From NCBI GenBank assembly GCA_902587565.1, contig CACILT010000003.1:1-64000 (forward strand): DNA of 64,000 nucleotides, in the 5' to 3' direction. The notes beneath the pieces are model-generated. The model ran no database searches and had not been told where the DNA came from. It saw only the letters and a program-made list of their open reading frames with translations. This document shows, piece after piece, positions 7,216-54,570 of the stretch. Positions within the stretch are counted from its first letter, which is position 1; every line of letters starts with the position of its first letter. Made by a program: the position numbers and the translations under genes. Origin of the DNA: an uncultured Alphaproteobacteria bacterium (GTDB lineage: Bacteria; Pseudomonadota; Alphaproteobacteria; HIMB59; GCA-002718135).

Positions 7216-7235
7216 GAAAAAAAATAATTCATTAA

Positions 7236-8723: not shown

Positions 8724-8724
8724 C

Positions 8725-31990: not shown

Positions 31991-32884
31991 TTAGGTTAAG
32001 TGTATTTTTGATTTATGATCTTCTAAACCTTGATAGTTTAAATTTATAGAAAATAGACTCCCATCTAATTCATGTTGATTTTTTCCAGGATTTTTTGCAG
32101 ATGTGATAAAAAGTGTTTTTAGATCTTTTCCACCAAAAACACAGTTGGTAATATTTTCTACTGGCATTTCTATAACTTGATCAACTTCTCCAGAAGGTGT
32201 GTATCTTACTAAACATGATCCACCCCAACGACAATTCCATAAACATCCATCTGTATCCATAGTCGAACCATCTGGAAATCCTCTATCAAAATTTGCAAAA
32301 AATTGTTTATTAGATAAATTACCTGTCTCTACATCGTAATCATATTTCATAATATTTCCATCAAGAGTATCTGTAAAATAAAAATTTTTGTTATCTGGGC
32401 TCCATACAAAAGTATTTGGTATCCCAAGATTATCTTCAACAGTAGTAATAATATTATCTTTATCAACTCTATATAATTTTCCAATATTCTCTTTAATAGG
32501 TATACTTTCCCCATCTTTGTCAAAATTGTTTTGCATCGTTCCAAACCATAATCTGCCCATTACATCTGATGCACCATCATTAGATCTTGTATGAAGAAGT
32601 TTATTCTCTACGTTTAATATTCTTTGAAATTTTTTACTATTAGTGTTGAATAGATTTATTCCATTGTTTGATACAAGGATAATTTCATTTTCTGATTTAA
32701 TTGATGTTGCTGTGACAATTTCAGGAATTTCGAAACTATCTTTTTGCTCATTAATTAAATTGAATCTATGTAATTTTGAGGTATTATTTATATCTAACCA
32801 ATAAAGAGTTTGATCTTTTTTAGAAAAAGTAATTCCTTCTCCAAGAATATTTTTACACTTATACGCTATGTCAACCTTATGCAT
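31991..32884 (-). CDS. SMP-30/gluconolactonase/LRE-family sugar lactonase
   Basis: 297 aa, six-bladed beta-propeller. Opens sugar lactones to aldonates. Metal-site residues appear in LGEGITFSKKDQTLYWLDI (first Glu), LHTRSNDGASDVMGRLWFGTM, GIPNTFVWSPDNKNFYFTDT (Asn) and FPDGSTMDTDGCLWNCRWGG (Asp). Between the permease genes and the aldonate dehydratase it supplies the middle step of an oxidative sugar route. The substrate sugar is unknown. Confidence 0.88.
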   Translation of the reverse strand: MHKVDIAYKCKNILGEGITFSKKDQTLYWLDINNTSKLHRFNLINEQKDSFEIPEIVTATSIKSENEIILVSNNGINLFNTNSKKFQRILNVENKLLHTRSNDGASDVMGRLWFGTMQNNFDKDGESIPIKENIGKLYRVDKDNIITTVEDNLGIPNTFVWSPDNKNFYFTDTLDGNIMKYDYDVETGNLSNKQFFANFDRGFPDGSTMDTDGCLWNCRWGGSCLVRYTPSGEVDQVIEMPVENITNCVFGGKDLKTLFITSAKNPGKNQHELDGSLFSINLNYQGLEDHKSKIHLT

Positions 32885-36183: not shown

Positions 36184-36256
36184 ACTTGAACAAATATAAG
36201 GAAACTTAATGTAATTTATTTTTCTTTTAATTTTTTTTTTGATAATAAATAAAAGT

Positions 36257-37855
36257 ATGAAATATGATTATATCATTATTGGAGGCGGGAGTTCGGGCTG
36301 TGTTACTGCGAACAAGTTAATAAACAACGAGGCAAAAGTACTAATTGTAGAAGAAGGAGGGGATTATAAAAATCCCTTTTTAAAAATGCCAGCTGGCTTT
36401 ATTCCTATGTTAGATGGTAGTCCCTATCATAGGTTTCATAAAACAATTCCACAGCAACAACTAAATGGAAGACAACATGACATAGCACAAGGTAAAATTT
36501 TAGGTGGTGGTAGCAGTATCAATGGAATGGTTTATATGAGAGGTCGACCTTCTGACTATGATAAATGGTTTATAGAAATTGAAGATCAGAATTGGACATG
36601 GGATTCTTTATTAAAAAGTTACACTGACTTAGAAGGTAATCAAAGATTAAATAACAATTTCCATGGAGCAAATGGACCATTGAAAGTTTCTGACCCCATG
36701 TATGTAGTAAAAGGAACTGATCTTTATTTAAAAACAATGCAAGGATTGGGCTTACCTTATAACACTGACTTTAATGATGGAAAGCAATATGGTGTTGGGT
36801 TAATGCAATTGACAACTTATTATGGAAAACGTTGCAGTGCAGTAGATGCATTTATTGAACCTATAAGGAAGAATAAAAATTTAACCATTAAATTAAAAAG
36901 TGTAGTAACTAAAATAATTTTCGAAAAAAATAAAGCTATAGGAGTTGAGGTTTTAAAAAATGGAAAATTAGAAAAATATTATGCAAATAGTCAAATAATT
37001 TTAACTGCTGGAACATATATATCTCCAAAGATACTAATGCATTCAGGCATAGGCGATGAAGAAGAATTAAAAAAACACAATATAAGAACTAAAATTAACT
37101 TAAAAGGAGTTGGAAAAAATTTACAAGATCATCATGAAGTTCCTTATGTTGTTTCAACAAAAAAAGGTTATGGATATTTTAATCAAGATAAAGGAATTAG
37201 AAAATATATAAATGGATTACAGTATATTTTGTTTAATTCAGGTCCTGTTACATCAAATGCTGCTGAAACGTGTGCTTTTTTAAATCCAAGAAATTTAAAA
37301 GATAATAACGACCCACCTATCAAACTATATTGTGTACAAATAATGTACACAGACAGGGATACGAAAGATATTAAACAAAGTCATGGTCTTACTTTGACAT
37401 CATGTATAATGAATCCAAAAGCACGTGGGGATGTTAAATTAAGATCATCGAATCCACTTGATTTACCATTAATAAATCCAAACTTTTTTTCTAATGATGA
37501 AGATTTAAATCTAATGGTAGATAGTTTGAAGTTTGCTAGAAAAGTTGTAGAGTCTAAACCTCTTTCAGAAATAGTATTAGATGAAACTTTACCTGGTAAA
37601 AATATTAAATCAGATGATGATTTAATTAATTATTGTAAAAGAACAGTCAAAACAAATTGGCATCCAGTAGGAACATGCAAAATGGGTAAGTCAGAAGATG
37701 ATACTGCTGTTGTCGATAGTCATTTAAGAGTACATGGTGTAGAAAATCTTAGAGTTTTCGATGTTTCAATGATGCCTAACCTTGTGAGCGGTAATACTAA
37801 TGCTCCAGCTATGGCGATAGCAAATAAAGCAGTAGAAATTATGTTAAATGAATAA
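36257..37855 (+). CDS. GMC-family flavin oxidoreductase
   Basis: 532 aa from ATG 36257; an in-frame TTG at 36239 is less likely. N-terminal FAD motif DYIIIGGGSSGCVTANKL, GMC signature LGGGSSINGMVYMRGRPSDYD, and C-terminal catalytic region TNWHPVGTCKMG with its His, then NTNAPAMAIANKA. The family oxidises alcohols (choline, sugars, glucose) to aldehydes or lactones. Divergent from the sugar ABC operon, it could make the lactone that the SMP-30 enzyme opens. Choline dehydrogenase is the closest textbook relative, but nothing here fixes the substrate. Confidence 0.88.
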   Translation: MKYDYIIIGGGSSGCVTANKLINNEAKVLIVEEGGDYKNPFLKMPAGFIPMLDGSPYHRFHKTIPQQQLNGRQHDIAQGKILGGGSSINGMVYMRGRPSDYDKWFIEIEDQNWTWDSLLKSYTDLEGNQRLNNNFHGANGPLKVSDPMYVVKGTDLYLKTMQGLGLPYNTDFNDGKQYGVGLMQLTTYYGKRCSAVDAFIEPIRKNKNLTIKLKSVVTKIIFEKNKAIGVEVLKNGKLEKYYANSQIILTAGTYISPKILMHSGIGDEEELKKHNIRTKINLKGVGKNLQDHHEVPYVVSTKKGYGYFNQDKGIRKYINGLQYILFNSGPVTSNAAETCAFLNPRNLKDNNDPPIKLYCVQIMYTDRDTKDIKQSHGLTLTSCIMNPKARGDVKLRSSNPLDLPLINPNFFSNDEDLNLMVDSLKFARKVVESKPLSEIVLDETLPGKNIKSDDDLINYCKRTVKTNWHPVGTCKMGKSEDDTAVVDSHLRVHGVENLRVFDVSMMPNLVSGNTNAPAMAIANKAVEIMLNE

Positions 37856-38863
37856 TTACAAATAATGAGCTTTATCTTTGATACGCACCATTACTTCTTT
37901 AGTAGCCTCTTCAGATCCATCATGGAAAGTTCCCATAAGTTTATCTAAAAAACTTGTATTACCTCCAGAGTAATTACATTCAAAATATTTATGATGAATA
38001 TAATGGTTGTAGTCACCCGTAGGAATTGAAGTTCCATTTTTGAAAGTCATTTTTTCATATCCTGTATGTCCCGGTGTAGGTGCAAGCCCAGCATGAAATA
38101 CATGATACATTGCCACAAGAGGATGGGATGGAATAACCCAATGTATAAGAATACCAGAAAAATAGAGTACATGTTCTATTGGATGCATAGACATACCTGA
38201 CCAGGCCCCTGTGTTAGTGTTACGATGATGAACTTTGTGAGCAATTTTGTAAAGCGGGGCCCAATGTAGTAATCTATGTGTTAAATAAAAGTGTGCATCT
38301 CTAATGAAGGGTACTAAAAAAAACATAAAACAACAATAAACTGGATAAGCTTCCCAGCTTACATATGGGATAATTTGATTCGCAAATGCCCAGAATGTAA
38401 TTACTTCATAGACTGTCCATAAGGGAATAGCACTACAGAAAGTGTAAAATAAATTATCTTTTGTCTGATTATTAAATAAAAAAGTTGGATTATCTTTTTC
38501 TAAAGGACGTGGGTTGTATTTGAATGATGTGCCTTGTGTTTTTAATTTTAGATGAAAAAATCCAGTCCAAATAAGAATTATCAAACAATTTCTAAAAAAA
38601 ATATAAGATATCCAACCAACTTCAAAATTTTTCATTGTTTCTAAAGAGGGAGTTAGAAAAAAATAAGTAGCAACAGTTATTGCTCCAAAGACAAATGTCC
38701 ACGGGAAAAAAATACCTGGATATTTAAAAAAATATTTAAGCAATTTTATTGGATTATAAAAAATGTTTAGAGGAGGATTAATACTTATTGTACCAAATGG
38801 TTTCCAATGTCCTCTTTTATCTCTTGTTCCAAAATTTTCATCGTTTAATTTATCTTTACTCAT
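37856..38863 (-). CDS. Sterol desaturase/fatty acid hydroxylase family membrane di-iron protein
   Basis: 335 aa with about four hydrophobic segments. The His-box set of the family is complete: HFYLTHRLLHW, then HKVHHRNTNTGAW and SMHPIEH, then HYIHHKYFECNYSG. Such enzymes hydroxylate or desaturate with O2 and external electrons, which the ferredoxin and reductase of the same operon could supply. Last gene of the seven-gene oxygenase operon, 3 bases after the PanB-like gene. Convergent with the GMC gene: the two coding regions touch with no gap. Confidence 0.88.
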   Translation of the reverse strand: MSKDKLNDENFGTRDKRGHWKPFGTISINPPLNIFYNPIKLLKYFFKYPGIFFPWTFVFGAITVATYFFLTPSLETMKNFEVGWISYIFFRNCLIILIWTGFFHLKLKTQGTSFKYNPRPLEKDNPTFLFNNQTKDNLFYTFCSAIPLWTVYEVITFWAFANQIIPYVSWEAYPVYCCFMFFLVPFIRDAHFYLTHRLLHWAPLYKIAHKVHHRNTNTGAWSGMSMHPIEHVLYFSGILIHWVIPSHPLVAMYHVFHAGLAPTPGHTGYEKMTFKNGTSIPTGDYNHYIHHKYFECNYSGGNTSFLDKLMGTFHDGSEEATKEVMVRIKDKAHYL

Positions 38864-38866
38864 TAA

Positions 38867-39700
38867 CTAACCTCTTTTTTCTAGATCGTTTAAAAATATA
38901 TCTAGTTCTTTTTCATTGATTTCTACTATATTTTTTTTCTCAGGAAAAGTGCCAGAGTGAACATCATCATAAAATTCTTGAAAAGCAGCTTCTCGTTCTT
39001 TTTGAAGTCTTGCAAATTCTTGTTGAAAATCTCTATATTTTTTGGCATGACGTGGAATTTTGCCTTTTGTGGTTCCTAATATGTCGCATCCAAAAACATA
39101 TTCTACATCACACCCAGGTCCACTTCCCATTGACATTACTGTTGGTCTTACTTTTTTTGATATTGCCTCTGCAATTTTATATGGGACACATTCCATTTCA
39201 ATTGCAACTCCACCAGCATCTTGAATTTTTAAACATTGATCATAGACCCACATAGCTTCTATTGCTGTTTTTCCTACAGCTACAAAACCTCCTGTCCACG
39301 TCCTTTTAGGAGGAACTAATCCTACATGTCCTAAACAAGGAATACCTTCTTTGAACAATTCACTGATTAAGTCAAAACGTGTATTGCAATAAAGCATATC
39401 AAAGCCATGCTCGAGTATCTTAAAGGAAAATCTTTTTGCTTCATCAATTGTTGGTATAAAACTATCTGGTGCACCACAATGCATAAAGGCAGTAGGTGCC
39501 GCTTCTCTCATTCGAACTAATTGATCAAAATGAGGGTGATCATCATCATTTTTAAACTTACCAGCTAAACCAGTAGCTAACATTTCAAATCCAACCTTAT
39601 CAGCTGCTAGAGCTTCTTCCTCATTTTTAATTAATATACAAACTAATTTTTTATTTCCTTTGTAATTTTGTAAATCTTTAACAGTAACTTTTTTTTTCAT
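38867..39700 (-). CDS. PanB-fold paralogue 2 with degenerate metal site
   Basis: 277 aa, clearly related to ketopantoate hydroxymethyltransferase in its C-terminal half: GHVGLVPPKRTWTGGF, IQDAGGVAIEMECVP and MGSGPGCDVEYVFGCDILG, ending PRHAKKYRDF. The Glu of the LECVP-like motif (E170) is kept. The PanB metal and substrate residues are not: the VGDS position reads MLATG (40-44), LADLPF reads AFMHCG, and KIEGG reads LYCNT (103-107). It is therefore unlikely to be real PanB. The gene is 2 bases from the second desaturase gene. Function unknown. Confidence 0.8.
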   Translation of the reverse strand: MKKKVTVKDLQNYKGNKKLVCILIKNEEEALAADKVGFEMLATGLAGKFKNDDDHPHFDQLVRMREAAPTAFMHCGAPDSFIPTIDEAKRFSFKILEHGFDMLYCNTRFDLISELFKEGIPCLGHVGLVPPKRTWTGGFVAVGKTAIEAMWVYDQCLKIQDAGGVAIEMECVPYKIAEAISKKVRPTVMSMGSGPGCDVEYVFGCDILGTTKGKIPRHAKKYRDFQQEFARLQKEREAAFQEFYDDVHSGTFPEKKNIVEINEKELDIFLNDLEKRG

Positions 39701-39702
39701 TT

Positions 39703-40716
39703 TTAATTCACTTTTGGAACTTGAATATCAACAAAATAATTTTTATCTTTTGATTGTTTAAATATCGCGGGAATAATTTCTTTGTAAGCATCTATCACAC
39801 CTATTTTAGGTGAAGGCATTTGATCTTTAATTACTTTATGAAAAGTTTTTAAATTGTAACAAGGTATTTTTGGAAAAATGTGGTGTTCAATATGATACTC
39901 CATCTTTGAATACAGAAAACTAAAAAAAGGATTTAAAATTACAGTTCTGGTACTTTTTCTATGATCTTTAACGTTATCTTGTAATCCAGCGTGTTGTGTC
40001 ATTGCACATATCATTAAAATTGTATTGCCATAAAAGGGTGGTAACAAAATCATGATAATTGGTAACCAGGAATTTATATAAACTGAAAAAGCAATTATAC
40101 TAAACCAGAATAATACATATAAACGTGAACTATTTTTCACTTTTTTAATTTCATTTTTTGGAACAGTTTGTTTTACTACATCTGAAAAAATACCCAAGGA
40201 ATGTTTTATAATCTCAAAGTGTGTAAAATGTCTAACTTTTTGAATATTAATTAATGGTCCAAGAGGTAAGAAGTTTAGTAAAAATCTAATTGGTTCAGTA
40301 GGTCTGGGACTGTTATTTTCATAATCATAAACTTCTTCATGAGTAAAAATTGTATGAGTATGATGGTGAAAATGACTCCATTTCCAACGAACTGCCTCAA
40401 ATCCACCAAGTAAGCTTGTTAAATTATAAAAAAAACGGTTTAATGATCGTGATTTGAAATATGTTTCATGATTTGTTTCGTGTTGAATACTGATTATTTT
40501 ACAATAAAAAATATTGCCATAAAGTAGTAAAGTTAAAAGACTCCACCAAGTTCCCCAAGTAATAATAGACAAATATCCTGAGATTAATAATAAAAAAAAG
40601 AAAATAGAGATATCAATCGTTGCCTTTAAATCTGATCGCTTAGAAAATTCTTTAAGGATTTTTTTTTCTATATTTGGTTTATACCAAGATTTAAGATCAA
40701 CTTCACCAGCAAACAT
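39703..40716 (-). CDS. MocD/fatty-acid-desaturase-type membrane oxygenase 2
   Basis: 337 aa, about four to six hydrophobic segments. Three His boxes: HETNH (79-83), WSHFHHH (H115-H119) and YHIEHHIFPKIP near the C-terminus. It is a paralogue of the protein at 43170, sharing WYKPNI/WYRANI, YLSIITWGTWW/YLAYITWGTWW and the order of His boxes. The family includes lipid desaturases and the rhizopine oxygenase MocD. Electron supply is presumably the Rieske ferredoxin and reductase in the same operon. Paired with a PanB-like gene on each side. Confidence 0.87.
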   Translation of the reverse strand: MFAGEVDLKSWYKPNIEKKILKEFSKRSDLKATIDISIFFFLLLISGYLSIITWGTWWSLLTLLLYGNIFYCKIISIQHETNHETYFKSRSLNRFFYNLTSLLGGFEAVRWKWSHFHHHTHTIFTHEEVYDYENNSPRPTEPIRFLLNFLPLGPLINIQKVRHFTHFEIIKHSLGIFSDVVKQTVPKNEIKKVKNSSRLYVLFWFSIIAFSVYINSWLPIIMILLPPFYGNTILMICAMTQHAGLQDNVKDHRKSTRTVILNPFFSFLYSKMEYHIEHHIFPKIPCYNLKTFHKVIKDQMPSPKIGVIDAYKEIIPAIFKQSKDKNYFVDIQVPKVN

Positions 40717-40721
40717 GATTA

Positions 40722-41549
40722 TTAAAATTTTTCAGCAAGTTTTAAGAATTTTTCATATTCTTTATCTTCAATACCAACTGTTATTTTAGGATCATTAAAT
40801 TTTTTATTTAATGTGTCTTCGTGAAATGATTTAAATGCATCCACTCTTTCTCTTTGTAACTTTTCATGCTCTTTCTTGAAGTCTTTATATATTCTTGCGT
40901 GACGAGGAATGTGACCCTTAGTATATCCAAGAACATCATTTGCAAAAAGATATTGTCCATCACATCCAGATCCACTACCCATAGAAAGTGTCATAATATC
41001 AACTTTTTGTGTTACTACTTCTGCTACTTTAGGAGGAACTACTTCGAGCTCTACTCCAATTGCACCTGCATCTTGAAGTTCAAGTGTATGTTCTAAAATT
41101 CTAATTGCCTTATCTGCTGTCTTTCCTTGAGCAACAAATCCACCAATCCACGTTGAATTTCCTGGAACTAAACCGACGTGGCTATTTATAGGAACGAACT
41201 CATCTCTTAGAGCTCTAATCCATTTATAGCTCCAGTTACCTCCATAAATAACATCTGCTCCAATATCTAGATATTTATGAGATAGTTTCATTGCCTCATA
41301 TTCAGACGCAACTCTTACGGCTCCTCCAGATTGCATAAAGCAAGTCGGCGCAGCTTTACGTATTCTTTTTAATTCATCAAAAGAATTATATATACCGAAT
41401 TGAGGAGCATCATGAGAAGTACAAATCATATCTATACCTGCCTCTTCAGCAGCAGCTGCTTCATCCTCACTATGTACAAACATAACACTTAATTGTCTTT
41501 TACCTTTACATTGTAGGTAATCATAAACAGTCAGTTTTTTTCTACTCAT
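40722..41549 (-). CDS. PanB-fold paralogue 1 with degenerate metal site
   Basis: 275 aa, homologous to its operon neighbour at 38867. PanB-like features kept: SHVGLVPGNSTWIGGF, LQDAGAIGVELEVVP with E169, and MGSGSGCDGQYLFANDVLG. Replaced: VGDS by CTSHD (43-47), LADLPF by CFMQSG (70-75), KIEGG by IYGGN (101-105), removing the Asp/Asp/Glu metal ligands and the Lys of PanB. The (beta/alpha)8 fold and a C-terminal helix rich in Lys/Glu are retained. A changed C-C or C-O chemistry in the PEP-mutase/PanB superfamily is likely, but the reaction cannot be named. Confidence 0.8.
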   Translation of the reverse strand: MSRKKLTVYDYLQCKGKRQLSVMFVHSEDEAAAAEEAGIDMICTSHDAPQFGIYNSFDELKRIRKAAPTCFMQSGGAVRVASEYEAMKLSHKYLDIGADVIYGGNWSYKWIRALRDEFVPINSHVGLVPGNSTWIGGFVAQGKTADKAIRILEHTLELQDAGAIGVELEVVPPKVAEVVTQKVDIMTLSMGSGSGCDGQYLFANDVLGYTKGHIPRHARIYKDFKKEHEKLQRERVDAFKSFHEDTLNKKFNDPKITVGIEDKEYEKFLKLAEKF

Positions 41550-41567
41550 AAAATCTCCAGATATTAA

Positions 41568-41885
41568 TTAATTTATCTTAATGAAAATTTTATCATTATC
41601 AACTTTAACTGGATACGTTTTTAAGTCATCACACGCAGGTGGGCTTAGAGCCTCTCCAGATTTTATATTAAATATACCTTGATGCATTGGACACTCTATT
41701 TCATCATCCATAACTAGGCCATCTTCAAGATGCACAGCCTCATGGGTACAAATCCCATCTGTAGCATAAAACCCATCTGTTAATCTATATACACAAAAAG
41801 TTTTATCTTGATGATCAAATCTTATTAGATCTTCTTCCTCTATGCTATCGGTAGATCCTACCTCAATCCAATTTTCATCAGCCAT
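41568..41885 (-). CDS. Rieske-type [2Fe-2S] ferredoxin (MocE-like)
   Basis: 105 aa, a complete small Rieske ferredoxin. Cluster ligands are C46-x-H48 (GICTHEAVHLEDG) and C65-x2-H68 (ECPMHQGIFN). No signal peptide, so cytoplasmic. It resembles MocE and the ferredoxins of ring-hydroxylating dioxygenases. Between the reductase and the first PanB-like gene, it is the obvious electron carrier from the reductase to the membrane oxygenases. Confidence 0.93.
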   Translation of the reverse strand: MADENWIEVGSTDSIEEEDLIRFDHQDKTFCVYRLTDGFYATDGICTHEAVHLEDGLVMDDEIECPMHQGIFNIKSGEALSPPACDDLKTYPVKVDNDKIFIKIN

Positions 41886-41935
41886 TAAGTATATATAATG
41901 ACAAATTTTGGAAAATAAATATAAAATTGAAATTC

Positions 41936-43165
41936 TTATTTCTGGATAAGTTTATTTAATTTTTGGCTTTGATCAGATAATAGTGAACTATCAACAATTG
42001 TGTTTTTTTCAGTCAACTTTGAAGTTATTCTAATATCACGTCCAACTTTTCCAGCAATACCTAAACCGCATGCGCCTTTAATTTTTTTATTTTTTAAGAA
42101 GAAATAAATTATGCCATCATCAATTCTCTTGCCCCTTTCGACAATTTCATCATAATCATCACAGATACCAGTTAGTTGAAGATTTAAATTGAATTGATCA
42201 GACCACATCCACGGAATAGATGAATACTCTGTTTTTATTCCAGAGATATTTTTTCCTGCACATAAACCATGATTTTGAGCATGTTGATAAGATTCAAGAC
42301 GCATATATTTAGCATATAAAGGATGGTAAAAGTTAGAAACATCTCCTGAAGCATATACATTTTTTATATTAGTTTCACAAAATTCATTTGTGACAATTCC
42401 ATTATCTAGTTTTAATTTAGTATTTTCAAATAGTCCAACATTTGGAATAGATCCTATACCTGCAACTATAAGATCTGATATTATTTCTGTGTTATCGTTT
42501 AATAAGATTTTATATTTTTCATTGATTTTAGTTATTTCGGAAATTGTTTTATTTAAAATTATTTTATTTCCCTCATTCTCATGGAATTGTTTTACTAGAT
42601 CAGCAATTTGATTAGGAATGATCCTTCCCATTAATTGGTTACCTACTTCAACAAGACTAATATTTTTATTTAGTTGAGAAAAAGATGATGCTATTTCTAA
42701 ACCAATGAAACCACCGCCTATGATTAATATATTTTTTTTTCCTAAAGCTTTCTCTTTAATGTTATTTGCCTCTTCTAAATTTCTTAAATAAAAAATCTCA
42801 TCATCAACTTCACTATTAATGTTTAATTTTCTATTCTTGGAACCAGTGGAAATTAAAAGAGTATCGTAAGTATATTGTTTGTTATCTTCTGATACTAAAA
42901 TATTATTTTCAAAGTCTACTTTGATAATAATAGTATTAAGATAATTTATTTTTTCTTCTTCTAATGTCTCTTTTGAACAAAAGTATAAGTCTTCATCAAT
43001 TCTTTTATTTAAAAGAAAATCTTTTGATAAAGGTGGTCTTTCATAAGGTATAAATTTTTCTTCTCCCAGGATTGTTATTTCTGCATCTCTATTATTTTTT
43101 CTTATTTCTCTTGCAGCGTACAAAGCGGATTGACCTCCGCCTAGAATAAATATTTTTTTATTCAC
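41936..43165 (-). CDS. FAD-dependent ferredoxin-NAD(P)+ reductase (MocF/BphA4-like)
   Basis: 409 aa. FAD motif IFILGGGQSALYAAREIR, followed by the diagnostic GEEKFIPYERPPLSKDFLL of Rieske-ferredoxin reductases; NAD-binding motif NILIIGGGFIGLEIASSF; C-terminal FAD motif NVYASGDVSNFY. It would pass electrons from NAD(P)H to the Rieske ferredoxin encoded 50 bases downstream. It lies 4 bases after the first desaturase-type gene. Confidence 0.92.
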   Translation of the reverse strand: MNKKIFILGGGQSALYAAREIRKNNRDAEITILGEEKFIPYERPPLSKDFLLNKRIDEDLYFCSKETLEEEKINYLNTIIIKVDFENNILVSEDNKQYTYDTLLISTGSKNRKLNINSEVDDEIFYLRNLEEANNIKEKALGKKNILIIGGGFIGLEIASSFSQLNKNISLVEVGNQLMGRIIPNQIADLVKQFHENEGNKIILNKTISEITKINEKYKILLNDNTEIISDLIVAGIGSIPNVGLFENTKLKLDNGIVTNEFCETNIKNVYASGDVSNFYHPLYAKYMRLESYQHAQNHGLCAGKNISGIKTEYSSIPWMWSDQFNLNLQLTGICDDYDEIVERGKRIDDGIIYFFLKNKKIKGACGLGIAGKVGRDIRITSKLTEKNTIVDSSLLSDQSQKLNKLIQK

Positions 43166-43169
43166 TTAG

Positions 43170-44156
43170 TTATATTTTACTTGGGACTAGAAGATCAATT
43201 TTGTAATCAGGATTTTTTGACTGTTTATATAAAGCCGGGATAATCTCTTTATACGCACCCCATAATCCTTTTCTGATTGGTGGCATTTGATCTTTAATAA
43301 GTTCATGCAATTTTGGTAAATTATATGATGGAACTTGTGGAAACATATGATGTTCAATATGGTATTCCATTTGCCAATACAAAAAGCTGAATATTGGATT
43401 GAGTTTTACTGTTCTTGTGCTGTGTCGATGATCTTTAATATCTTCTTTTAGTCCTGCATGCTGAGTTGCGCCAAAAAGAGTAATCAAAGTCTTTCCATAA
43501 AAATTTGGTAAAATAATATATAATAGTGGTAACCAAGATTGAAAATAAATAGAGGCTGCAATTGTTGCAACCCATATAAATACATGACTTCTTGCTGACC
43601 ACCTACACTTACTTCTTTCTTTTTCTGGAACGCACACCTTCATCACATCAGTTGTAACACCAAATGCATGCTTAATGGTTTCCCAATGAAGTGATTTGTG
43701 AATATAGAGAAAGCCTGAAAAAGGCACAAAAAGTGAAAAGAACCATATTAAATCAGTTGGTTTTTTAACTAGAATTTCAAAATCGTAGGGATCATTAAAT
43801 ATAGTATAGGAGTGATGATGAAAATGTGAATGTCTCCATCTTACTGGCTCAAAATTGTCCATGAAACCAGCAATGTAATAAAAGAAATCGTTCCAAAATT
43901 TACTTTTAAATGCTGTTCTATGTCCAGTCTCATGCCATAAAGCATCAGAACAACCCCATATACTTCCATAAATAAAGAAAAATAATACACACCACCATGT
44001 ACCCCAAGTAATGTAAGCTAAATAACCGGCTATAAATAAAGCTGAAAAGTAAATAAACATATGCTTAAAACCCTGCCAATCAGATTTTTTACAAAGTTTC
44101 TTAAACTCTTTTTTGTCTATATTCGCTCTATACCACTTGTTTAGATCAACATCCAT
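43170..44156 (-). CDS. MocD/fatty-acid-desaturase-type membrane oxygenase 1
   Basis: 328 aa, first gene of the oxygenase operon. His boxes: HETGH (75-79), HSHFHHH (109-115), HAGLKEDIKDHRHSTRT and the C-terminal YHIEHHMFPQVPSYN. Hydrophobic helices flank them. Together with the ferredoxin and reductase that follow, the gene order oxygenase-reductase-ferredoxin mirrors the components of rhizopine mocDEF. The homology is at family level; the real substrate could be an ether, an amine or a lipid. The start fits the -HETGH spacing of the family, and no alternative start is evident. Confidence 0.88.
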   Translation of the reverse strand: MDVDLNKWYRANIDKKEFKKLCKKSDWQGFKHMFIYFSALFIAGYLAYITWGTWWCVLFFFIYGSIWGCSDALWHETGHRTAFKSKFWNDFFYYIAGFMDNFEPVRWRHSHFHHHSYTIFNDPYDFEILVKKPTDLIWFFSLFVPFSGFLYIHKSLHWETIKHAFGVTTDVMKVCVPEKERSKCRWSARSHVFIWVATIAASIYFQSWLPLLYIILPNFYGKTLITLFGATQHAGLKEDIKDHRHSTRTVKLNPIFSFLYWQMEYHIEHHMFPQVPSYNLPKLHELIKDQMPPIRKGLWGAYKEIIPALYKQSKNPDYKIDLLVPSKI

Positions 44157-44325: not shown

Positions 44326-45306
44326 ATGAAAAAAATCTTTGCATTCATAGCTCTTTTTTTTGCCTTTGCATCTACTTCAGCGATAGCAAAAAATGATTAT
44401 AGCTGTGATAAGAAATTTATATTTTTTCCAGGCGGACCTGAAGGTGGTCCATTTGGAACTATTGTTTACAATGGTGCAGTAGCAGCTGCTGAGCATACAG
44501 GTTGTGAAGTAGACTATTACTGGTCACAGTGGAACTCAGAAATTATGATTAAGCAATTTAAAGAAGCCGTTGCATTACAGCCTGATGGAATTGCAATTTA
44601 TGGTTTTCCTGGTGATGCTGCAATGAGACCAATTATTCAAGAAGCAAGAGAAATGGGAATAGTTATTACTACTATGAACACACCACTTCCTGATCTTGAA
44701 TCAGAATATAAAACTGAAGGTTTTGGTTATGCAGGTGCAGATCTATTTGATGCTGGATTTAATCTAGGTAAAAAAGCTGTTGAAGTTTGTGGTCTACAAG
44801 CTGGAGATAAAGCTTTTATATGGGGTCTTGCAAGTATGCCAAACAGAGGAGAAAGAACTAAAGGAGCAATAGCTGGTGTAGAGGCAGCTGGAGTTGAAGT
44901 TGTTTATCAAGAAATTCCAGATAACGTTAACTCAGATGCATCTCAGGGAACTCCAATGTACGTTGCTACTTATAGTGCAAATCCTGATATCAAAATGGCA
45001 ATTACAGATCACGGTGGATTAACTGCAAGTTTACCAACATATATGAAAGCTGCAGGTCATGGTACTGAAGAGGTATGTGGTGCTGGATTTGATTTATCAG
45101 CTCCTATTGTTGATGGAATTAACTCTGGTTACATTGATGTTGTAATTGATCAACAACCATTTATCCAAGGTTACATGCCAATTGTTCAGTTATTCCTAAG
45201 CACAAAATATGGAATGGCTGGATTAGCAATGGATACTGGTGCTGCTTTTGTTACAGCTGATAACGTTGATGCTGTTGCTCCATTGGCAGCGGTACAAATC
45301 AGATAA
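44326..45306 (+). CDS. Ribose/inositol-type periplasmic binding protein (ABC importer)
   Basis: 326 aa, with a Sec signal peptide (FAFIALFFAFASTSAIAK). The mature protein is a type-1 periplasmic binding protein: GTIVYNGAVAAAEHTGCEV, ALQPDGIAIYGFPGDA, and VDGINSGYIDVVIDQQPFIQGY. Relatives bind ribose, inositol, rhizopine (MocB) or other small polyols, so the ligand is open. A strong GGAGG lies 7 bases before ATG, unlike most genes here. A terminator hairpin follows, then the ATPase and permease genes. Confidence 0.9.
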   Translation: MKKIFAFIALFFAFASTSAIAKNDYSCDKKFIFFPGGPEGGPFGTIVYNGAVAAAEHTGCEVDYYWSQWNSEIMIKQFKEAVALQPDGIAIYGFPGDAAMRPIIQEAREMGIVITTMNTPLPDLESEYKTEGFGYAGADLFDAGFNLGKKAVEVCGLQAGDKAFIWGLASMPNRGERTKGAIAGVEAAGVEVVYQEIPDNVNSDASQGTPMYVATYSANPDIKMAITDHGGLTASLPTYMKAAGHGTEEVCGAGFDLSAPIVDGINSGYIDVVIDQQPFIQGYMPIVQLFLSTKYGMAGLAMDTGAAFVTADNVDAVAPLAAVQIR

Positions 45307-45320: not shown

Positions 45321-45353
45321 CCTGCCTTATTTTATAAGGCAGGTTTGTTTTTT
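45321..45353 (+). terminator. Intrinsic terminator/attenuator between binding-protein and ATPase genes
   Basis: A perfect 10-bp stem (CCTGCCTTAT with ATAAGGCAGG, 45321-45330 and 45334-45343) with a 3-base loop is followed by TTTGTTTTTT, a classic rho-independent terminator. The U-tract runs straight into the ATG of the ATPase gene at 45354. Read-through must be partial for the downstream genes to be expressed, so it probably sets a high ratio of binding protein to transporter. Confidence 0.85.
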
Positions 45354-46121
45354 ATGGCTGAAGAACTCTTAAAATTGCAAAATATTTATAAAAACTTTGG
45401 AAACGTCAAAGTTTTAAAAGATGTAAATATCAAAATAAATAAAGGTGAAGTAGTAGCTTTAATAGGAGATAACGGGGCTGGAAAATCAACACTTATTAAA
45501 GTCATAACAGGAGTTCATAGCCCAAATTCAGGAAAAGTTTTTTTTAAAGAACAAGAAGTACAAATTAAATCAGTAGCGCAATCAAGAAAAATGGGGATTG
45601 AAGCAGTCTATCAAGAAAGAGCTTTATGCGATCAACAAGAACTATATAGAAATATCTTCGCAGGAAGAGAAATTACAAATTCATTTGGTTTTTTAGATAT
45701 AAAAAAACAAAGAAAAGAAGCAGAAAAAATTTTACGTGACTATATAGGTTTTACGTCAAAAGCTATAACCGTTGACTCTCAAGTAATGGGTCTTTCTGGT
45801 GGAGAAAAACAAGGTGTAGCTTTTGGTAGATCATTGTATTTTAATTCGGATCTAATTGTTTTAGATGAACCAACAATGGGTTTATCTATTCAAGAAACTG
45901 AAAAAGTTCTTAATTTTGTAAAAGGTTTAAAAAATGAAAATAAATCTGCGATATTTATCGATCATAATATCATACATGTTTACGGTGCTGCAGATCGATT
46001 TATTATCTTAGATAGAGGTGAAGTTGTTGGGGAATTTAATAAGGAAGATATTTCAAGAGAAGAACTAGTTCAAAAAATGATTCAACTACATGAATCAGGA
46101 AAAATAAAAGTGGAAGATTAA
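45354..46121 (+). CDS. Sugar-type ABC transporter ATPase, single nucleotide-binding domain
   Basis: 255 aa from ATG 45354; the open frame's TTG at 45345 lies in the terminator U-tract. Walker A GDNGAGKSTLIK, signature LSGGEKQGVAFGRSL, Walker B LIVLDEPTMGLS and the switch His in IFIDHNIIHVYG are all present. RbsA and MglA have two such domains; this is a single-domain type like FrcA, so a homodimer is expected. Followed directly by the permease gene. Confidence 0.93.
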   Translation: MAEELLKLQNIYKNFGNVKVLKDVNIKINKGEVVALIGDNGAGKSTLIKVITGVHSPNSGKVFFKEQEVQIKSVAQSRKMGIEAVYQERALCDQQELYRNIFAGREITNSFGFLDIKKQRKEAEKILRDYIGFTSKAITVDSQVMGLSGGEKQGVAFGRSLYFNSDLIVLDEPTMGLSIQETEKVLNFVKGLKNENKSAIFIDHNIIHVYGAADRFIILDRGEVVGEFNKEDISREELVQKMIQLHESGKIKVED

Positions 46122-47099
46122 ATGAATAATTTATTAAATAGTTATTTTGTAAAAACTCACAAACTTGAAATTAGTATTACTATAATTGCTGTAGTACTTT
46201 TCTTAATTTACTTTTTAGGTGCACCACATGTATTTACAAGATTTCCTATTTATAGAGCTTTTATGCAATCAATGCCTTTTTTTGGAATTATTGCTATATC
46301 AGCTACATTTGTTGTTACACTTGGTGAAATTGATTTATCATTTCCATCTATAGTTGGAATTACATCTCTCATATTTGGCATTATAATGACATCGACAGAT
46401 GGTAACTTCTTTATAGCATTTATTTTGGCAACTTCACTTGGAATGTTTGCTGGATTAGTAAATGGATTACTTGTTACTAAAATTGGTATACCTTCAATAG
46501 TTGCCACTATAGGTACATTATTTTTTTGGCGTGGATTAGTTAATGTAATTTCGCAAGGTAGCGGTATTGCAATCGTCGATGTAGCAGATGGAACATGGCA
46601 TCATATGATATTTGTTGAAAAATTATTTGGAAAAATTCCAATGCAATTTATTTGGTTCATTGTATTAACTGGATTGATGCAATGGGTTTATCGATACCAT
46701 AAATTTGGAAATCATATCCACTTTGTAGGTGATAACAAAGCAAGTGCTCAAATGATGGGAATTAACGTTGATAATGTAAAAATTATTGCTTTTGTTCAAC
46801 TAGGATTTTTCTCTGCATTAGCAGGAATTTTTACTATGTATGAAATGTTATATTTCTGGCCTACACAAGGTGAGGGCTTAATGTTAACGACATTAGCAGC
46901 TGTCTTTGTTGGCGGCACTTCAGTCTTTGGTGGTAAAGGTACTATTTTTGGAACTTTTATTGGAGTATTAATTATTGGATCATTAGAATCAGGAATAGTT
47001 GCTTTAGGCTTATCTGGTTTTTATGTAAAATTTATTAACGGACTCATGATTACAGTAGCCGTAACAGTCTACGCTCTAATACAAAGAAGAAAAAATTAA
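46122..47099 (+). CDS. Ribose-type ABC transporter permease
   Basis: 325 aa, eight to ten membrane helices. The signature segments are VTLGEIDLSFPSIVGI and AAVFVGGTSVFGGKGTIFGTFIGVLIIGSLESGIVALGLS, typical of the RbsC/XylH/FrcC family. It starts immediately after the ATPase stop codon and its own stop overlaps the end of the convergent SDR gene by 4 bases. Confidence 0.93.
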   Translation: MNNLLNSYFVKTHKLEISITIIAVVLFLIYFLGAPHVFTRFPIYRAFMQSMPFFGIIAISATFVVTLGEIDLSFPSIVGITSLIFGIIMTSTDGNFFIAFILATSLGMFAGLVNGLLVTKIGIPSIVATIGTLFFWRGLVNVISQGSGIAIVDVADGTWHHMIFVEKLFGKIPMQFIWFIVLTGLMQWVYRYHKFGNHIHFVGDNKASAQMMGINVDNVKIIAFVQLGFFSALAGIFTMYEMLYFWPTQGEGLMLTTLAAVFVGGTSVFGGKGTIFGTFIGVLIIGSLESGIVALGLSGFYVKFINGLMITVAVTVYALIQRRKN

Positions 47100-47833
47100 T
47101 AAGTAGCTCTACCTCCACTCAAATCAAAAGTTGAGCCTGTTGTGTAAGAATTTTCTTCAGAAGACATCCAAGCAACTAAAGAAGCTAATTCTTCTACTAA
47201 CACAAATCTATTTCTCGGAATTTTTGATAACATATAATCAATATGTTCTTGTGTAATTTGATCAAAAATACGTGTCTTAGCAGGTGCAGGGGTAACACAA
47301 TTCACTGAAATATTTTTTTCAGCTAATTCTTTTCCTAAAGATTTAGTAAGTGCAATAACTCCTGCTTTTGCTGCACTATAAGGCATTGCATTAGGATTAC
47401 CCTCCTTACCAGCTATCGAGGAAATATTAACGATACGTCCATAATTATTTTTGATAAAATGAGGAACTATAGTTTTACAGCAATAAAATACTCCACTTAG
47501 ATCTATGTCTATAACTTTTTGCCATTCATCAAGTGGGTAATCCCATGTCTTAAAGTTTGGCCCAGCTATTCCTGCATTATTTATTAAAATATCAATTTTG
47601 TTTTCATATGTAAGACTTTCAGCAAATGCATTCTCTACACTTTTATAATTTGAAACATCAACTTCAATTTTTTGAGTATTTTTTAGATCAATTTTATTTA
47701 AATATTCTGTATCTTTATCCCATATTAATACTTTTGCGCCTGACTCTATAAATCTTTTAGTAATAGCTAATCCAAAGCCTTGTGCTCCACCAGTTACAAT
47801 TGCGACTCTATTTTCTAAATTAATTTTATTCAT
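47096..47833 (-). CDS. Short-chain dehydrogenase/reductase
   Basis: 245 aa, classical SDR. Cofactor motif TGGAQGFGLAI, NNAGIAG, catalytic Ser in NISSIAGKEG and YxxxK in MPYSAAKAGVIAL. The Asp in IWDKD after strand 2 favours NAD(H). A C-terminal SGGRATY ends the fold. Likely a polyol, sugar or 3-hydroxyacyl dehydrogenase. It could act on the compound brought in by the adjacent importer, but it sits in a different transcription unit, one base from the peroxiredoxin gene. Confidence 0.87.
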   Translation of the reverse strand: MNKINLENRVAIVTGGAQGFGLAITKRFIESGAKVLIWDKDTEYLNKIDLKNTQKIEVDVSNYKSVENAFAESLTYENKIDILINNAGIAGPNFKTWDYPLDEWQKVIDIDLSGVFYCCKTIVPHFIKNNYGRIVNISSIAGKEGNPNAMPYSAAKAGVIALTKSLGKELAEKNISVNCVTPAPAKTRIFDQITQEHIDYMLSKIPRNRFVLVEELASLVAWMSSEENSYTTGSTFDLSGGRATY

Positions 47834-52505: not shown

Positions 52506-52532
52506 TATTAACTCCATATAAAATTATAGACA

Positions 52533-52553
52533 CATAACTAACCTTTAGTTACG
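52533..52553 (-). promoter_or_regulatory. Expression-platform hairpin of amt-1 leader
   Basis: On the minus strand CGTAACTAA pairs with TTAGTTATG around AGG (9 pairs, one G-U). It sits between the aptamers and the ribosome-binding site, 17 bases upstream of the latter. The hairpin at 54571-54591 occupies the equivalent place in the other amt leader but has a different sequence and a nearly fully paired stem, so the pairing is conserved rather than the bases. Confidence 0.55.
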
Positions 52554-52595
52554 CATTGCATCATGCTTAGCTATGGAAATTAAATAATAAGATCC

Positions 52596-52645
52596 GCGTT
52601 CCTTCGGGTATACCTACTTCCGATTTGCTTTAGGCAAATTGAACG
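52596..52645 (-). promoter_or_regulatory. Glutamine riboswitch aptamer (glnA class), proximal, amt-1 leader
   Basis: On the minus strand: CGTTCA, a variable hairpin (ATTTGC/GCAAAT around CTAAA), then CGGAAGTAGG, a short arm, and CGAAGGAACGC, whose GAACG closes on the opening CGTTC. These invariant pieces, order and spacing (50 bases) match the glnA RNA motif, a glutamine-binding aptamer known from cyanobacteria and marine metagenomes. Identified from motif knowledge; not run through a covariance model. Confidence 0.88.
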
Positions 52646-52662
52646 ATTTAATAACTTTGCAT

Positions 52663-52713
52663 GCGTTCCTTCGACTTTCGTCTACTTCCGTCACCCTAAA
52701 AGAGTGATGAACG
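52663..52713 (-). promoter_or_regulatory. Glutamine riboswitch aptamer (glnA class), distal, amt-1 leader
   Basis: Second aptamer, 17 bases upstream of the proximal one. Minus strand: CGTTCA, hairpin TCACTC/GGGTGA, CGGAAGTAG, an arm ACGAAAGT, then CGAAGGAACGC. The 51-base sequence is identical to the distal aptamer at 54703-54753. Two aptamers in series are expected to sharpen the response to glutamine. Confidence 0.88.
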
Positions 52714-52781
52714 TGATTTGACTTATAACTATAATTCAGAAAGTATCAATAAATAGTATTAAAATTAATTATTAAATCTGA

Positions 52782-53156: not shown

Positions 53157-53185
53157 TTGCCCCTCCCACTAATGTTTAAGAGTTT

Positions 53186-53207
53186 TGGGAGAGCAAATGC
53201 TCTCCCA
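53186..53207. terminator. Hairpin after amt-2
   Basis: A 10-bp stem, TGGGAGAGCA with TGCTCTCCCA, 2 bases apart. As with the hairpin after amt-1, the T-tract (TTTTTT) is on the plus strand side; reading in the amt direction the hairpin is preceded by AAAAAA and followed by AAAACTC. It is thus not a standard minus-strand terminator. The arrangement A-tract, hairpin, ribosome-binding site, small gene is repeated after both amt genes. Confidence 0.65.
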
Positions 53208-53256
53208 TTTTTTAGTGACCAACTATAAGGAGTTGATGTGCTAATCACTAAATTCA

Positions 53257-54543: not shown

Positions 54544-54570
54544 TAATCCTCCATTATAAATTTCACAGTA

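Follow-up and report, generated by a model that had tools for sequence, protein, structure and literature searches.

Formaldehyde is the common product of demethylation by oxygenases of the kind described here. We know of no described enzyme family that passes the released one-carbon unit to folate, and to our knowledge no dedicated enzyme joins formaldehyde and tetrahydrofolate (THF) to give methylene-THF, a reaction taken as spontaneous. The closest described system is the rhizopine pathway, for which the published descriptions consulted name mocRABCDEF only (PMC10107442). In marine Flavobacteriia, 6-O-methyl-D-galactose is demethylated by a P450 and its redox partners with formation of formaldehyde, and the abstract reports that the clustered alcohol dehydrogenases do not detoxify formaldehyde (PMC10033563). 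Catabolic units tied to folate one-carbon metabolism are described for a compatible-solute island of Colwellia (PMC3691474) and for the chloromethane plasmid pCMU01 (PMC3621897). Among the matches listed from the open-access literature, none dealt with demethylation involving a PanB-like protein. The group studied here, AEGEAN-169/HIMB59, is described as being among the dominant groups of the upper ocean (PMC10734472). In the AEGEAN-169 paper PMC10308909, the terms inositol, rhizopine, methylated, one-carbon and desaturase are absent, and "demethyl" occurs only in a reference.

The window, a 64,000-nucleotide stretch from an uncultured HIMB59 bacterium, contains a candidate relative of these systems. 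An ORF check found all seven minus-strand reading frames (7/7) within 37856-44156, with gaps of 4, 50, 18, 5, 2 and 3 bases from the 44156 end downwards, bearing out the minus-strand operon with gaps of 2-50 bases that an initial annotation had proposed. Its genes are the following:

OxyA, 43170..44156, minus strand: MocD-type membrane di-iron oxygenase, 328 aa (PF00487, 128 bits, cut-off 29.7)
Red, 41936..43165, minus strand: NAD(P)H ferredoxin reductase, MocF-like, 409 aa (Pyr_redox_2 204 bits, Reductase_C 49 bits)
Fd, 41568..41885, minus strand: Rieske ferredoxin of the MocE family, 105 aa (TIGR02377, 136.9 bits, cut-off 136.15)
PanB2, 40722..41549, minus strand: PanB-like protein, proposed C1-to-THF enzyme, 275 aa (PF02548, 124.5 bits)
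OxyB, 39703..40716, minus strand: second MocD-type oxygenase, 337 aa (PF00487, 115 bits)
PanB1, 38867..39700, minus strand: second PanB-like protein, a variable part of the operon, 277 aa (PF02548, 112.5 bits)
FAH, 37856..38863, minus strand: fatty-acid-hydroxylase/sterol-desaturase-type membrane oxygenase, 335 aa (PF04116, 71.6 bits, cut-off 31)

All the products scored above curated Pfam cut-offs, for FA_desaturase (two proteins), Pyr_redox_2 with Reductase_C, Rieske, Pantoate_transf (two proteins) and FA_hydroxylase. OxyB is 49% identical to OxyA, and PanB1 is 42% identical to PanB2. Nine histidines of OxyA (H75, H79, H111, H114, H115, H233, H266, H269 and H270) were invariant across 34 aligned relatives. 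In a Foldseek search with its AlphaFold model (pLDDT 92), the alkane monooxygenase AlkB (8f6t) ranked third with an E-value of 4.9e-3; ranks 1 and 2 were chains of algal chloroplast motor complexes at 10% identity. Fd passed the MocE-family model narrowly. A His-box MocD-type oxygenase, a MocE-family Rieske ferredoxin and an FAD ferredoxin reductase are thus all present, the membership expected of a MocDEF-type system. A tRNA scan across the whole window found none.

The names of two of the Pfam families, FA_desaturase and FA_hydroxylase, invite the idea that lipids or sterols are modified by the MocD-type and FAH proteins, with the PanB-like genes as mere bystanders. We consider this very improbable. 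The DesA/DesB lipid desaturase models gave 26.9-42 bits against a cut-off of 500, with best scores for the two MocD-type proteins of 36.8 and 42 bits, and the genes are tied to others for importing and oxidizing sugars. The best NCBIfam match of OxyB was the polar amino acid hydroxylase GntB (45 bits, under the cut-off of 380). A lipid desaturase system with unrelated neighbours, which the initial annotation had regarded as fatal to its reading, was therefore rejected from the model scores and the neighbours.

The PanB-like proteins were next compared with PanB itself. The two in the operon scored 85.6 and 100.7 bits with the curated panB model (TIGR00222, cut-off 207.55), so the initial annotation was correct in calling them aberrant, and the other PanB-like proteins scored also fell under this cut-off. 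D45, D84, K112 and E114 of E. coli PanB, which we take to be its Mg2+/keto-acid residues, were replaced in 14 of 14 PanB-like proteins aligned, two of which (L051 and L110) have Glu in the D45 column. His136 and Glu181, presumably the half of the active site concerned with the hydroxymethyl group, correspond to H124 and E169 of PanB2 and were kept in 62 of 62. Three further residues, E167, D197 and H217, were likewise invariant (62/62), and of these E167 and H217 are absent from E. coli PanB. The genome also encodes a true PanB elsewhere, which retains all four of D45, D84, K112 and E114. In public records, the annotated rhizobial homologues examined carry the label 3-methyl-2-oxobutanoate hydroxymethyltransferase, and this naming would suit extra ketopantoate hydroxymethyltransferases for CoA synthesis. 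With the panB cut-off missed, a true PanB present and four residues lost, that explanation is scarcely credible and was rejected.

The AlphaFold model of PanB2 (pLDDT 91.4) has the PanB TIM-barrel fold, and all of the top 28 Foldseek rows were PanB (best E-value 1.7e-18). Among the next fold neighbours are PEP mutase, transaldolase, KDPGal aldolase and 2-methylisocitrate lyase. These could suggest that the PanB-like protein, like other families with this barrel, is a retro-aldolase or lyase acting on a hydroxylated sugar skeleton, in which case the oxygenases would hydroxylate carbon and not demethylate. Having several paralogues per genome fits substrate-specific enzymes of this kind, as does a sugar type that varies between neighbourhoods. 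We consider such an activity unlikely, since the Mg2+/oxo-acid residues of PanB are lost, and since it leaves no place for the folate genes described below.

Across the marine order HIMB59 (AEGEAN-169) the operon was found to be conserved, PanB1 excepted. The initial annotation had made its reading depend on such recurrence, and the neighbourhood does recur across the order. Among 77 named loci, whose counts lean to close relatives because they were drawn from the best 80 of 273 confirmed matches, and which come partly from the same single-cell genomes as other sampled genomes, the complete order occurred with PanB1 in 7 and without it in 20, and 50 had another order or a cut contig. The oxygenase-PanB pairing is therefore repeated, as proposed, but the double layout of the window is the rarer one. 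A gene of one of three unrelated O2-dependent oxygenase classes (MocD-type, PhyH or FA-hydroxylase) was present in 68 of the same 77 loci (best 80 of 273 matches). When PanB-like proteins were clustered at 80% identity and each cluster was represented by the member with most flanking sequence, 31 of 35 clusters had such a gene within 5 kb. A MocD-type or PhyH gene was seen in 20 of 20 loci of the order that were hand-picked from the match table, all centred on PanB-like genes, and in locus L094 FAH is the only oxygenase of the three classes near the PanB-like genes. The window's own genome, a 1.2-Mb assembly with five PanB-like copies, encodes 16 oxygenases of these classes; 11 of them have a PanB-like gene within 5 kb, although such stretches make up 2.9% of the genome. 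A naive binomial calculation gives p = 5e-14; the true p is larger because the oxygenases are themselves clustered. The arrangement exceeds chance. The conserved operon and the repeated pairing of MocD-type and PanB-like genes support the earlier proposal that a small imported compound is oxidized, here by a pathway of the MocDEF type.

In 142 genomes drawn evenly from the Alphaproteobacteria, 8 genomes outside the order had a strong PanB-like match (>250 bits, the only matches used for this class-wide count). Three of the 8 loci had MocD-type, PhyH or MocE/PurU neighbours and 5 had no marker family, 2 of these 5 lying near contig ends. In the weaker group of 139-178 bits that was left out of the count (8 loci, L190-L197), PhyH was present in 4 loci and adjacent in 1. 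Two apparent PanB fusions, of 562 aa (L139) and 599 aa (L118), were read as GC-rich frame extensions over an upstream oxygenase gene and set aside.

The functional unit is larger than seven genes. The reading frames stand as first annotated, but in relatives the unit extends past the limits of 37856-44156, taking in genes for a lactonase and a sugar-acid dehydratase, and it faces a sugar importer. The flanking genes of the window are as follows:

44326..45306, plus strand: periplasmic sugar-binding protein of the divergent importer (PF13407, 107 bits)
45345..46121, plus strand: sugar ABC importer ATPase with a single nucleotide-binding domain (ABC_tran)
46122..47099, plus strand: sugar ABC importer permease, called from its position in the transporter operon and its conservation in relatives, without a family assignment
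47096..47833, minus strand: SDR dehydrogenase, proposed sugar 1-dehydrogenase (SDR family matches only)
36239..37855, plus strand: GMC oxidoreductase (GMC_oxred domains), between the operon and the lactonase, of uncertain membership
31991..32884, minus strand: putative SMP30-type lactonase, named from its sequence, an operon member in relatives
30220..31953, minus strand: sugar-acid dehydratase of the IlvD/Edd type (NF004784, 917 bits, cut-off 539)

Across the seven loci of relatives in which it occurs (L039-L043, L046 and L050), the binding protein shows 93-99% identity, and its sole NCBIfam match was the rhizopine SBP model NF052284, at 83 bits under a cut-off of 420. No curated family was reached by any of the binding proteins tested (window, rhizobial and class-sample) that would identify the substrate. 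The best NCBIfam matches of the ATPase were sugar importers, all under cut-off. None of the matches listed for the SDR protein was over cut-off, the glucose 1-dehydrogenase subfamily giving 194 against 215 bits; in L094 and L107, SDR genes adjoin dehydratase, aldolase and PanB-like genes on the same strand. A search of NCBIfam at 1e-20 found nothing for the lactonase, whose gene forms one run with FAH-OxyB-PanB2 in L041-L043 and, in L039, with FAH-PanB1. The dehydratase, which scored 836 bits with the L-arabinonate dehydratase model (under the cut-off of 882), is contiguous with SMP30 and the operon in these same four loci, where the GMC oxidoreductase is absent from its position. Sugar-pathway genes neighbour the operon or PanB-like genes in L041-L043, L046, L094 and L107, and aldolases and galactonate-dehydratase-type enzymes are among the neighbours in relatives of the operon. 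L044 and L047 have IolD-like (read from sequence) and MocA-like genes nearby.

These neighbours point to a sugar or inositol as the substrate rather than an amine, a betaine or a lipid headgroup. The initial annotation had offered an ether, an amine or a lipid headgroup, of which the last two lose favour. Another possible explanation is N-demethylation with the same one-carbon handling, acting on an amine, a betaine, an N-methyl amino sugar or N-methylnicotinate. In its favour, a PanB-like-PurU pair in L136 follows a gene set read from sequences as nicotinate degradation, PanB-like genes in the C2 cluster of the window's genome lie beside PhyH and amino-sugar-like genes (also named from sequence), and the closest NCBIfam models of Red are aromatic-dioxygenase reductases. 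It seems quite unlikely for this operon, which keeps company with a sugar importer, a lactonase and a sugar-acid dehydratase, and with the sugar enzymes just named in relatives, and no deaminase or amine enzyme tied to the operon was seen in the relatives' loci examined.

The role of the PanB-like proteins is suggested by rhizobial and plasmid loci. PurU and FolD are folate enzymes that turn methylene-THF into formate. Rhizobia have the order MocD-MocE-reductase-PanB-like, sometimes with PurU and FolD next: M. huakuii pMHb has MocD-MocE-reductase-PanB-like-PurU-FolD, and R. lentis p4 has MocR-MocD-MocE-reductase-PanB-like-PurU, its MocR scoring 740 bits, above the rhizopine cut-off of 650. The initial annotation had called the pathway undescribed, which is not wholly so for the cluster: the rhizopine type has the same MocD-MocE-reductase core, and one version that includes PanB-like and PurU genes stands beside a MocR over the rhizopine cut-off. 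Among 36 loci treated as non-HIMB59, the gene immediately after the PanB-like one is PurU in 6 (4 of 28 genome-scan loci and 2 of 8 plasmid loci); the 36 include L101 and L137, which resemble HIMB59-type contigs in mislabelled bins, and two of the six PurU reading frames are truncated at the sequence end. FolD follows PurU in 4 of the 6, once as a 112-aa piece. In R. rhizogenes OV677 a PanB-like-PurU-FolD unit occurs, and no oxygenase of the three classes was detected in its locus. Both the adjacency and this standalone unit, which has no sugar enzyme, argue against lyase action on a sugar skeleton. Among the loci retrieved from the window's own order, none had PurU or FolD next to a PanB-like gene. 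A match to the PurU model at 8725-9294 of the window (68 bits) was read as the purine-pathway PurN and left out of the counts. Of 10 plasmid loci chosen for their similarity to MocD (excluding L198, a 2.9-kb part of a locus already counted), 5 lack a PanB-like gene, so the PanB-like protein is dispensable for MocD function. Two loci chosen by binding protein, L149 and L150, had no PanB-like ORF.

One-carbon outlets were surveyed in 41 genomes of the order, many of them incomplete. Fae was found in 0 of 41, and glutathione formaldehyde dehydrogenase over cut-off also in 0 of 41, with weak superfamily matches in 39, while formate-THF ligase was present in 37. The folate route is therefore the likely one-carbon outlet in HIMB59.

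We propose, with a probability of about 0.58, that the operon carries out O2-dependent O-demethylation of methylated sugars or inositols and that the PanB-like proteins deliver the one-carbon unit to THF. Its basis is the gene content, its conservation, the association with three oxygenase classes, the residues lost and retained, and the rhizobial PurU/FolD adjacency. From these we infer the reactions, the O-methyl target, the THF chemistry and the substrate. Judging by gene context, the oxygenase cluster probably strips methyl groups from imported methylated sugars, and the adjacency to PurU and FolD in rhizobia makes one-carbon transfer to folate the likely job of the PanB-like proteins. The divergent importer would bring in the methylated sugar (or inositol). 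Red would take electrons from NAD(P)H and hand them to the Rieske ferredoxin, which would supply OxyA and OxyB, both membrane di-iron oxygenases, and possibly FAH. An oxygenase would hydroxylate the O-methyl carbon to a hemiacetal, R-O-CH2OH. The PanB-like protein, using the hydroxymethyl half of the PanB site (His136, Glu181) with the Mg2+/keto-acid half lost, would then move the formaldehyde-level carbon to THF to give 5,10-methylene-THF, either directly from the hemiacetal or after formaldehyde release. FolD could convert this to 10-formyl-THF, and PurU or a reversed formate-THF ligase could yield formate. For the demethylated sugar, oxidation by the SDR enzyme may be followed by opening (SMP30 lactonase), dehydration (IlvD/Edd enzyme) and cleavage by a DapA-type aldolase. 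Several observations count against the proposal: the class-wide sample with 5 of 8 loci free of marker families, the MocD-type loci that lack a PanB-like gene, the lack of adjacent PurU or FolD in the retrieved HIMB59 loci, and the five PanB-like copies, which exceed the need for a single generic formaldehyde catcher.

A more specific version, which we hold only tentatively, is that the PanB-like proteins form a new family of "folate C1 acceptors" that transfer the hydroxymethyl group straight from R-O-CH2OH or R-N-CH2OH to THF, each paralogue matched to its own oxygenase, of whichever class, and to its substrate. Formaldehyde would therefore never be set free. Mean column entropy of the PanB-like proteins is 1.96 over residues 41-110 and 1.30 over 111-220 (ends 1.50 and 1.87), and the contrast between the first two is cited in the matching of paralogues to oxygenases.

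A PanB offshoot that accompanies oxygenases of three classes, and precedes PurU and FolD in some rhizobia, is a candidate formaldehyde-THF enzyme. If the proposed O-demethylation is true, AEGEAN-169/HIMB59 would gain a named food class, methylated sugars, and the several PanB paralogues in a streamlined genome would be explained. The hydroxymethyltransferase label on the rhizobial homologues would be corrected, and the rhizopine pathway would gain a part. Under the more tentative direct-transfer version, ocean bacteria and root-nodule symbionts would share a way of demethylating methylated sugars and inositols that depends on oxygen but not on a P450, and which would be a missing part of rhizopine catabolism.

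Compared with known systems, the pCMU01 and Colwellia units bring one-carbon groups into folate through methyltransferases or flavin oxidases, and are not known to use a PanB-like enzyme at this entry. The P450 system for 6-O-methyl-galactose resembles the role proposed here in its O2-dependent removal of a sugar O-methyl group by marine bacteria with redox partners; it uses a P450 in contrast to the membrane di-iron oxygenase of the window, and its abstract makes no mention of a PanB-like protein. The rhizopine MocD-MocE-MocF system of Rhizobium and Sinorhizobium shares the His-box oxygenase, the MocE-family Rieske ferredoxin, the FAD reductase and a nearby importer of the inositol/sugar type. 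The window differs from it in its order (oxygenase-reductase-ferredoxin), its second MocD-type oxygenase and FA-hydroxylase-type third, its sugar-acid-pathway genes in place of inositol genes, and a binding protein well under the rhizopine SBP cut-off (83 vs 420 bits). PanB has the same fold as the PanB-like proteins and the equivalents of His136 and Glu181, whereas D45, D84, K112 and E114 are replaced in the latter, the invariant E167 and H217 are new to them, and their genomic company is oxygenases and, in rhizobia, PurU and FolD.

All seven ORFs of the proposed operon were present on the minus strand at 37856-44156, separated by gaps of 4, 50, 18, 5, 2 and 3 bases, and the Pfam assignments agreed with the gene families named in the initial annotation. 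The members are as follows.

OxyA, minus strand within 37856-44156, MocD-type membrane oxygenase
Red, same strand and interval, reductase
Fd, same strand and interval, Rieske ferredoxin
PanB2, same strand and interval, PanB-like protein
OxyB, same strand and interval, MocD-type membrane oxygenase
PanB1, same strand and interval, PanB-like protein
FAH, same strand and interval, FA-hydroxylase-type oxygenase

Fd narrowly passed the MocE-family cut-off (136.9 vs 136.15 bits), and OxyA and OxyB scored far under the lipid-desaturase cut-offs. The AlphaFold model of OxyA (pLDDT 92) and its nine invariant histidines fit a predicted membrane oxygenase with a di-iron centre, akin to AlkB and the desaturases. 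PanB1 and PanB2 had been called aberrant, and both indeed fell far under the panB cut-off. The claim that the oxygenase-PanB pair appears twice had to be restricted to a smaller group, since among 77 named loci (from the best 80 of 273 matches) the whole order occurred with PanB1 in only 7, compared to 20 without it; the other 50 had another arrangement or a cut contig.

The window covers positions 1-64000 of contig C3, in an assembly of 1.20 Mb that is 70% complete. Among the matches listed, the closest named contigs were ocean single-cell genomes labelled uncultured Alphaproteobacteria, including AG-891-K05 (L082), with a PanB2 91% identical to that of the window. AG-891-K05 is the reference of a genomospecies in the order HIMB59 (PMC10734472), also named AEGEAN-169 (PMC10308909, PMC10734472), which makes HIMB59 the probable order of the window as well.

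Alongside a single true PanB, this genome has five PanB-like genes. Across 62 aligned PanB-like proteins, K15, G16, R64, P120, H124, G126, P129, G142, A148, G162, E167, E169, G191, G193, D197, F202, D205, P215, H217 and F268 (PanB2 numbering) were invariant, with H124 and E169 aligning to H136 and E181 of Escherichia coli PanB. E. coli residues D45, D84, K112 and E114 were kept in none of the 14 PanB-like proteins compared, two of which had Glu at the D45 column; the genome's true PanB kept all four. Given the roles ascribed to these six E. coli residues in the structure literature, the four replacements suggest that loss is on the keto-acid side, with the hydroxymethyl-side residues kept. Residues 41-110 form a variable stretch, and C-terminal residues 221-275 are nearly as variable. 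The PanB2 model had a pLDDT of 91.4, its sole segment of at least three residues under 50 being 133-136, within a conserved TWxGG-type loop, and the best 28 Foldseek rows were all PanB structures. For PanB, the literature describes a metal that aids enol formation of the keto acid and a hydroxymethyl group supplied by methylene-THF (PMC7770189), as well as a proposed side activity cleaving methylene-THF, with modelling and genetic support (PMC4814558).

The PanB-like genes were frequently found near oxygenases. The 122 PanB-like ORFs formed 35 clusters at 80% identity, and in 31 of these (one member examined per cluster) a MocD-type, PhyH or FA-hydroxylase gene lay within 5 kb; the exceptions were L096, L110, L113 and the third PanB-like gene of L094. 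Anywhere in the locus, one of the three classes was detected in 68 of the 77 named loci from the best 80 of 273 matches, and not in L096, L110, L113, L121, L123, L128, L130, L136 and L137. Within the genome itself, 5/6 MocD-type, 4/7 PhyH and 2/3 FA-hydroxylase genes were at most 5 kb from a PanB-like gene. As a control, the true PanB is on contig C1, which held 0 of 16 oxygenase matches. An even draw of 142 alphaproteobacterial genomes yielded 8 outside HIMB59 with a strong PanB-like match (>250 bits). Only three of these eight loci had oxygenase-system or PurU neighbours: MocD-MocE-reductase (L184), PhyH (L187), and a MocE-type ferredoxin with PurU among inositol-type genes (L188). Thus HIMB59 and rhizobia show a strong association, which is not universal in the family.

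Several further loci were recorded; gene names in quotation marks, here and below, were read from sequence. A 'GH4-type' gene lay beside the PanB-like gene in L056, L113 and L137, immediately before it in L113 (6631-8822) and L137 (116-2307), where no oxygenase was detected; in L056, PhyH was on the far side of the pair. At L096:7959-8834, with no oxygenase detected, a gene of the PanB2 type sharing 72% identity with that of the window sat between 'lpxK-like' and 'mur-ligase-like' genes on a 300-kb Verrucomicrobia MAG contig, representing either transfer or chimaeric assembly. L101 (labelled Euryarchaeota) and L137 (labelled Saprospirales) had HIMB59-type gene orders, and their labels are probable binning errors. 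In the same genome, L017:5656-9796 (contig C2, about 150.6-154.8 kb) held a tandem pair of PanB-like genes with three PhyH-type dioxygenases on its flanks, and 'sialidase-like', 'NagA-like', 'RidA' and 'D-amino-acid-like' genes lay close by; this would be the same chemistry on a second, different substrate, perhaps an N- or O-methyl amino sugar. L008:2543-16032 (contig C3, about 86.5-100 kb) held three MocD-type genes, an FA-hydroxylase, a PhyH, one PanB-like gene and a sugar importer, together with genes resembling MocA, xylose isomerase and sulfatase, the final names in this list being taken from the sequence.

The strongest pointer to a folate role, still a hint, came from plasmid records. 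LacI-MocD-MocE-reductase-PanB-like was found on both R. johnstonii 3841 pRL11 and S. meliloti ABS7 pSymB, MocD-MocE-reductase-PanB-like-PurU-FolD on M. huakuii 7653R pMHb, and the same order through PurU on R. lentis BLR27 p4. The p4 cluster adjoins a regulator over the rhizopine MocR cut-off (740 vs 650 bits), a myo-inosose dehydratase over its cut-off and two genes annotated Gfo/Idh/MocA; of its two binding proteins, one matched the rhizopine model under the cut-off (135 vs 420) and the other had no match to it at 1e-20. By HMM search, PurU was immediately 3' of the PanB-like gene in 6 of 36 loci treated as non-HIMB59, a set including L101 and L137: L120 and L136 (PurU cut by the sequence end), L123, L141, L143 and L147. 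FolD came next in the last four (a 112-aa piece in L147). The L123 locus (R. rhizogenes) yielded no gene of any of the three oxygenase classes. In L136 the PanB-like-PurU pair followed a gene set read as a nicotinate pathway (2249-8977: FAD monooxygenase, hydrolase, isomerase, amidase, dioxygenase, MarR), and demethylation of N-methylnicotinate (trigonelline) is a possible C1 source there. FolD and PurU convert methylene-THF to formate. Neither gene was beside a PanB-like gene in the fetched HIMB59 loci. Among 41 genomes of the order, many incomplete, Fae was absent, glutathione formaldehyde dehydrogenase was over the cut-off in none (weak matches in 39), and formate-THF ligase was found in 37. 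Of ten plasmid loci chosen by MocD similarity, five had a PanB-like gene (L064, L143, L144, L147, L151) and five did not (L061, L063, L145, L146, L148), which counts against an obligatory role. In L145 (7878-11513, a Nitratireductor plasmid), PurU took the place of the PanB-like gene straight after MocD-MocE-reductase, near iolG and a sugar importer.

The neighbourhoods of PanB-like genes were compared at 20 loci in 19 relatives, with ORFs labelled by BLAST against window and own-genome proteins. The functional unit exceeded seven genes. L041-L043 read dehydratase-SMP30 lactonase-FAH-OxyB-PanB2-Fd-Red-OxyA, beyond which lie the divergent importer and an SDR gene. Between FAH and the lactonase, the window has a second transporter and a GMC oxidoreductase. 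Elsewhere in the window, two tandem 'ammonium-transporter-like' genes (51219-54573) enclose a 124-aa ORF. In L046, and with equal ORF lengths in L050, the same importer faced PanB2-OxyA-SMP30-SDR-two enolase-type dehydratases-DapA-type aldolase-dehydratase. L094 had FAH-PanB2-type-PanB1-type, after which came genes for a DapA-type aldolase, a dehydratase and an SDR, then a third PanB-like gene; L107 (contig labelled Deltaproteobacteria) had aldolase-dehydratase-SDR-oxygenase-PanB-like. One L046 enolase-type protein passed the galactonate dehydratase cut-off (327 vs 311 bits); the window dehydratase passed that of NF004784 (917 vs 539 bits) and was just under that of L-arabinonate dehydratase (836 vs 882 bits). 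'Aldolase' is a name read from sequence; of the proteins so named, the two that were tested gave no match in NCBIfam at 1e-20. In L044, L045, L047 and L049, further clusters of the order HIMB59, PanB-like and oxygenase genes were joined to inositol-type genes, including 'IolD'. Lactonase, dehydratase, aldolase and SDR together make up a non-phosphorylating route of sugar oxidation, and a neutral sugar needing the oxygenase first is thus the most likely substrate. The importer, lactonase, dehydratase and aldolase genes make a sugar the most likely methyl carrier for the window operon.

When an enzyme of the MocD-type, PhyH or FA-hydroxylase class demethylates oxidatively, the product is at the CH2O level regardless of what carried the methyl group. 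Electrons from the NAD(P)H side would reach OxyA by Red and Fd, the oxygenase would demethylate the carrier, leaving the CH2O-level product, and the PanB-like enzyme would pass the C1 unit to THF. Most simply, the PanB-like protein is a candidate C1-to-THF enzyme, because it recurs with three oxygenase classes, appears to keep the hydroxymethyl-side residues and to have lost the keto-acid side, and has PurU/FolD downstream in some rhizobia. How many paralogues there are, and the variability of residues 41-110, favour the hemiacetal itself as its substrate; the standalone PanB-like-PurU-FolD unit of L123 favours free formaldehyde.

In the open-access literature searched, with subscription papers mostly outside the search, no link of a PanB-like protein to demethylation was found. 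The operon's oxygenase part would work like the MocDEF type, with which three tested features group it. The operon was not classed as a rhizopine cluster, since the window's binding protein failed the rhizopine test. The PanB-like proteins are not PanB, and they are possibly a new enzyme family within the operon.
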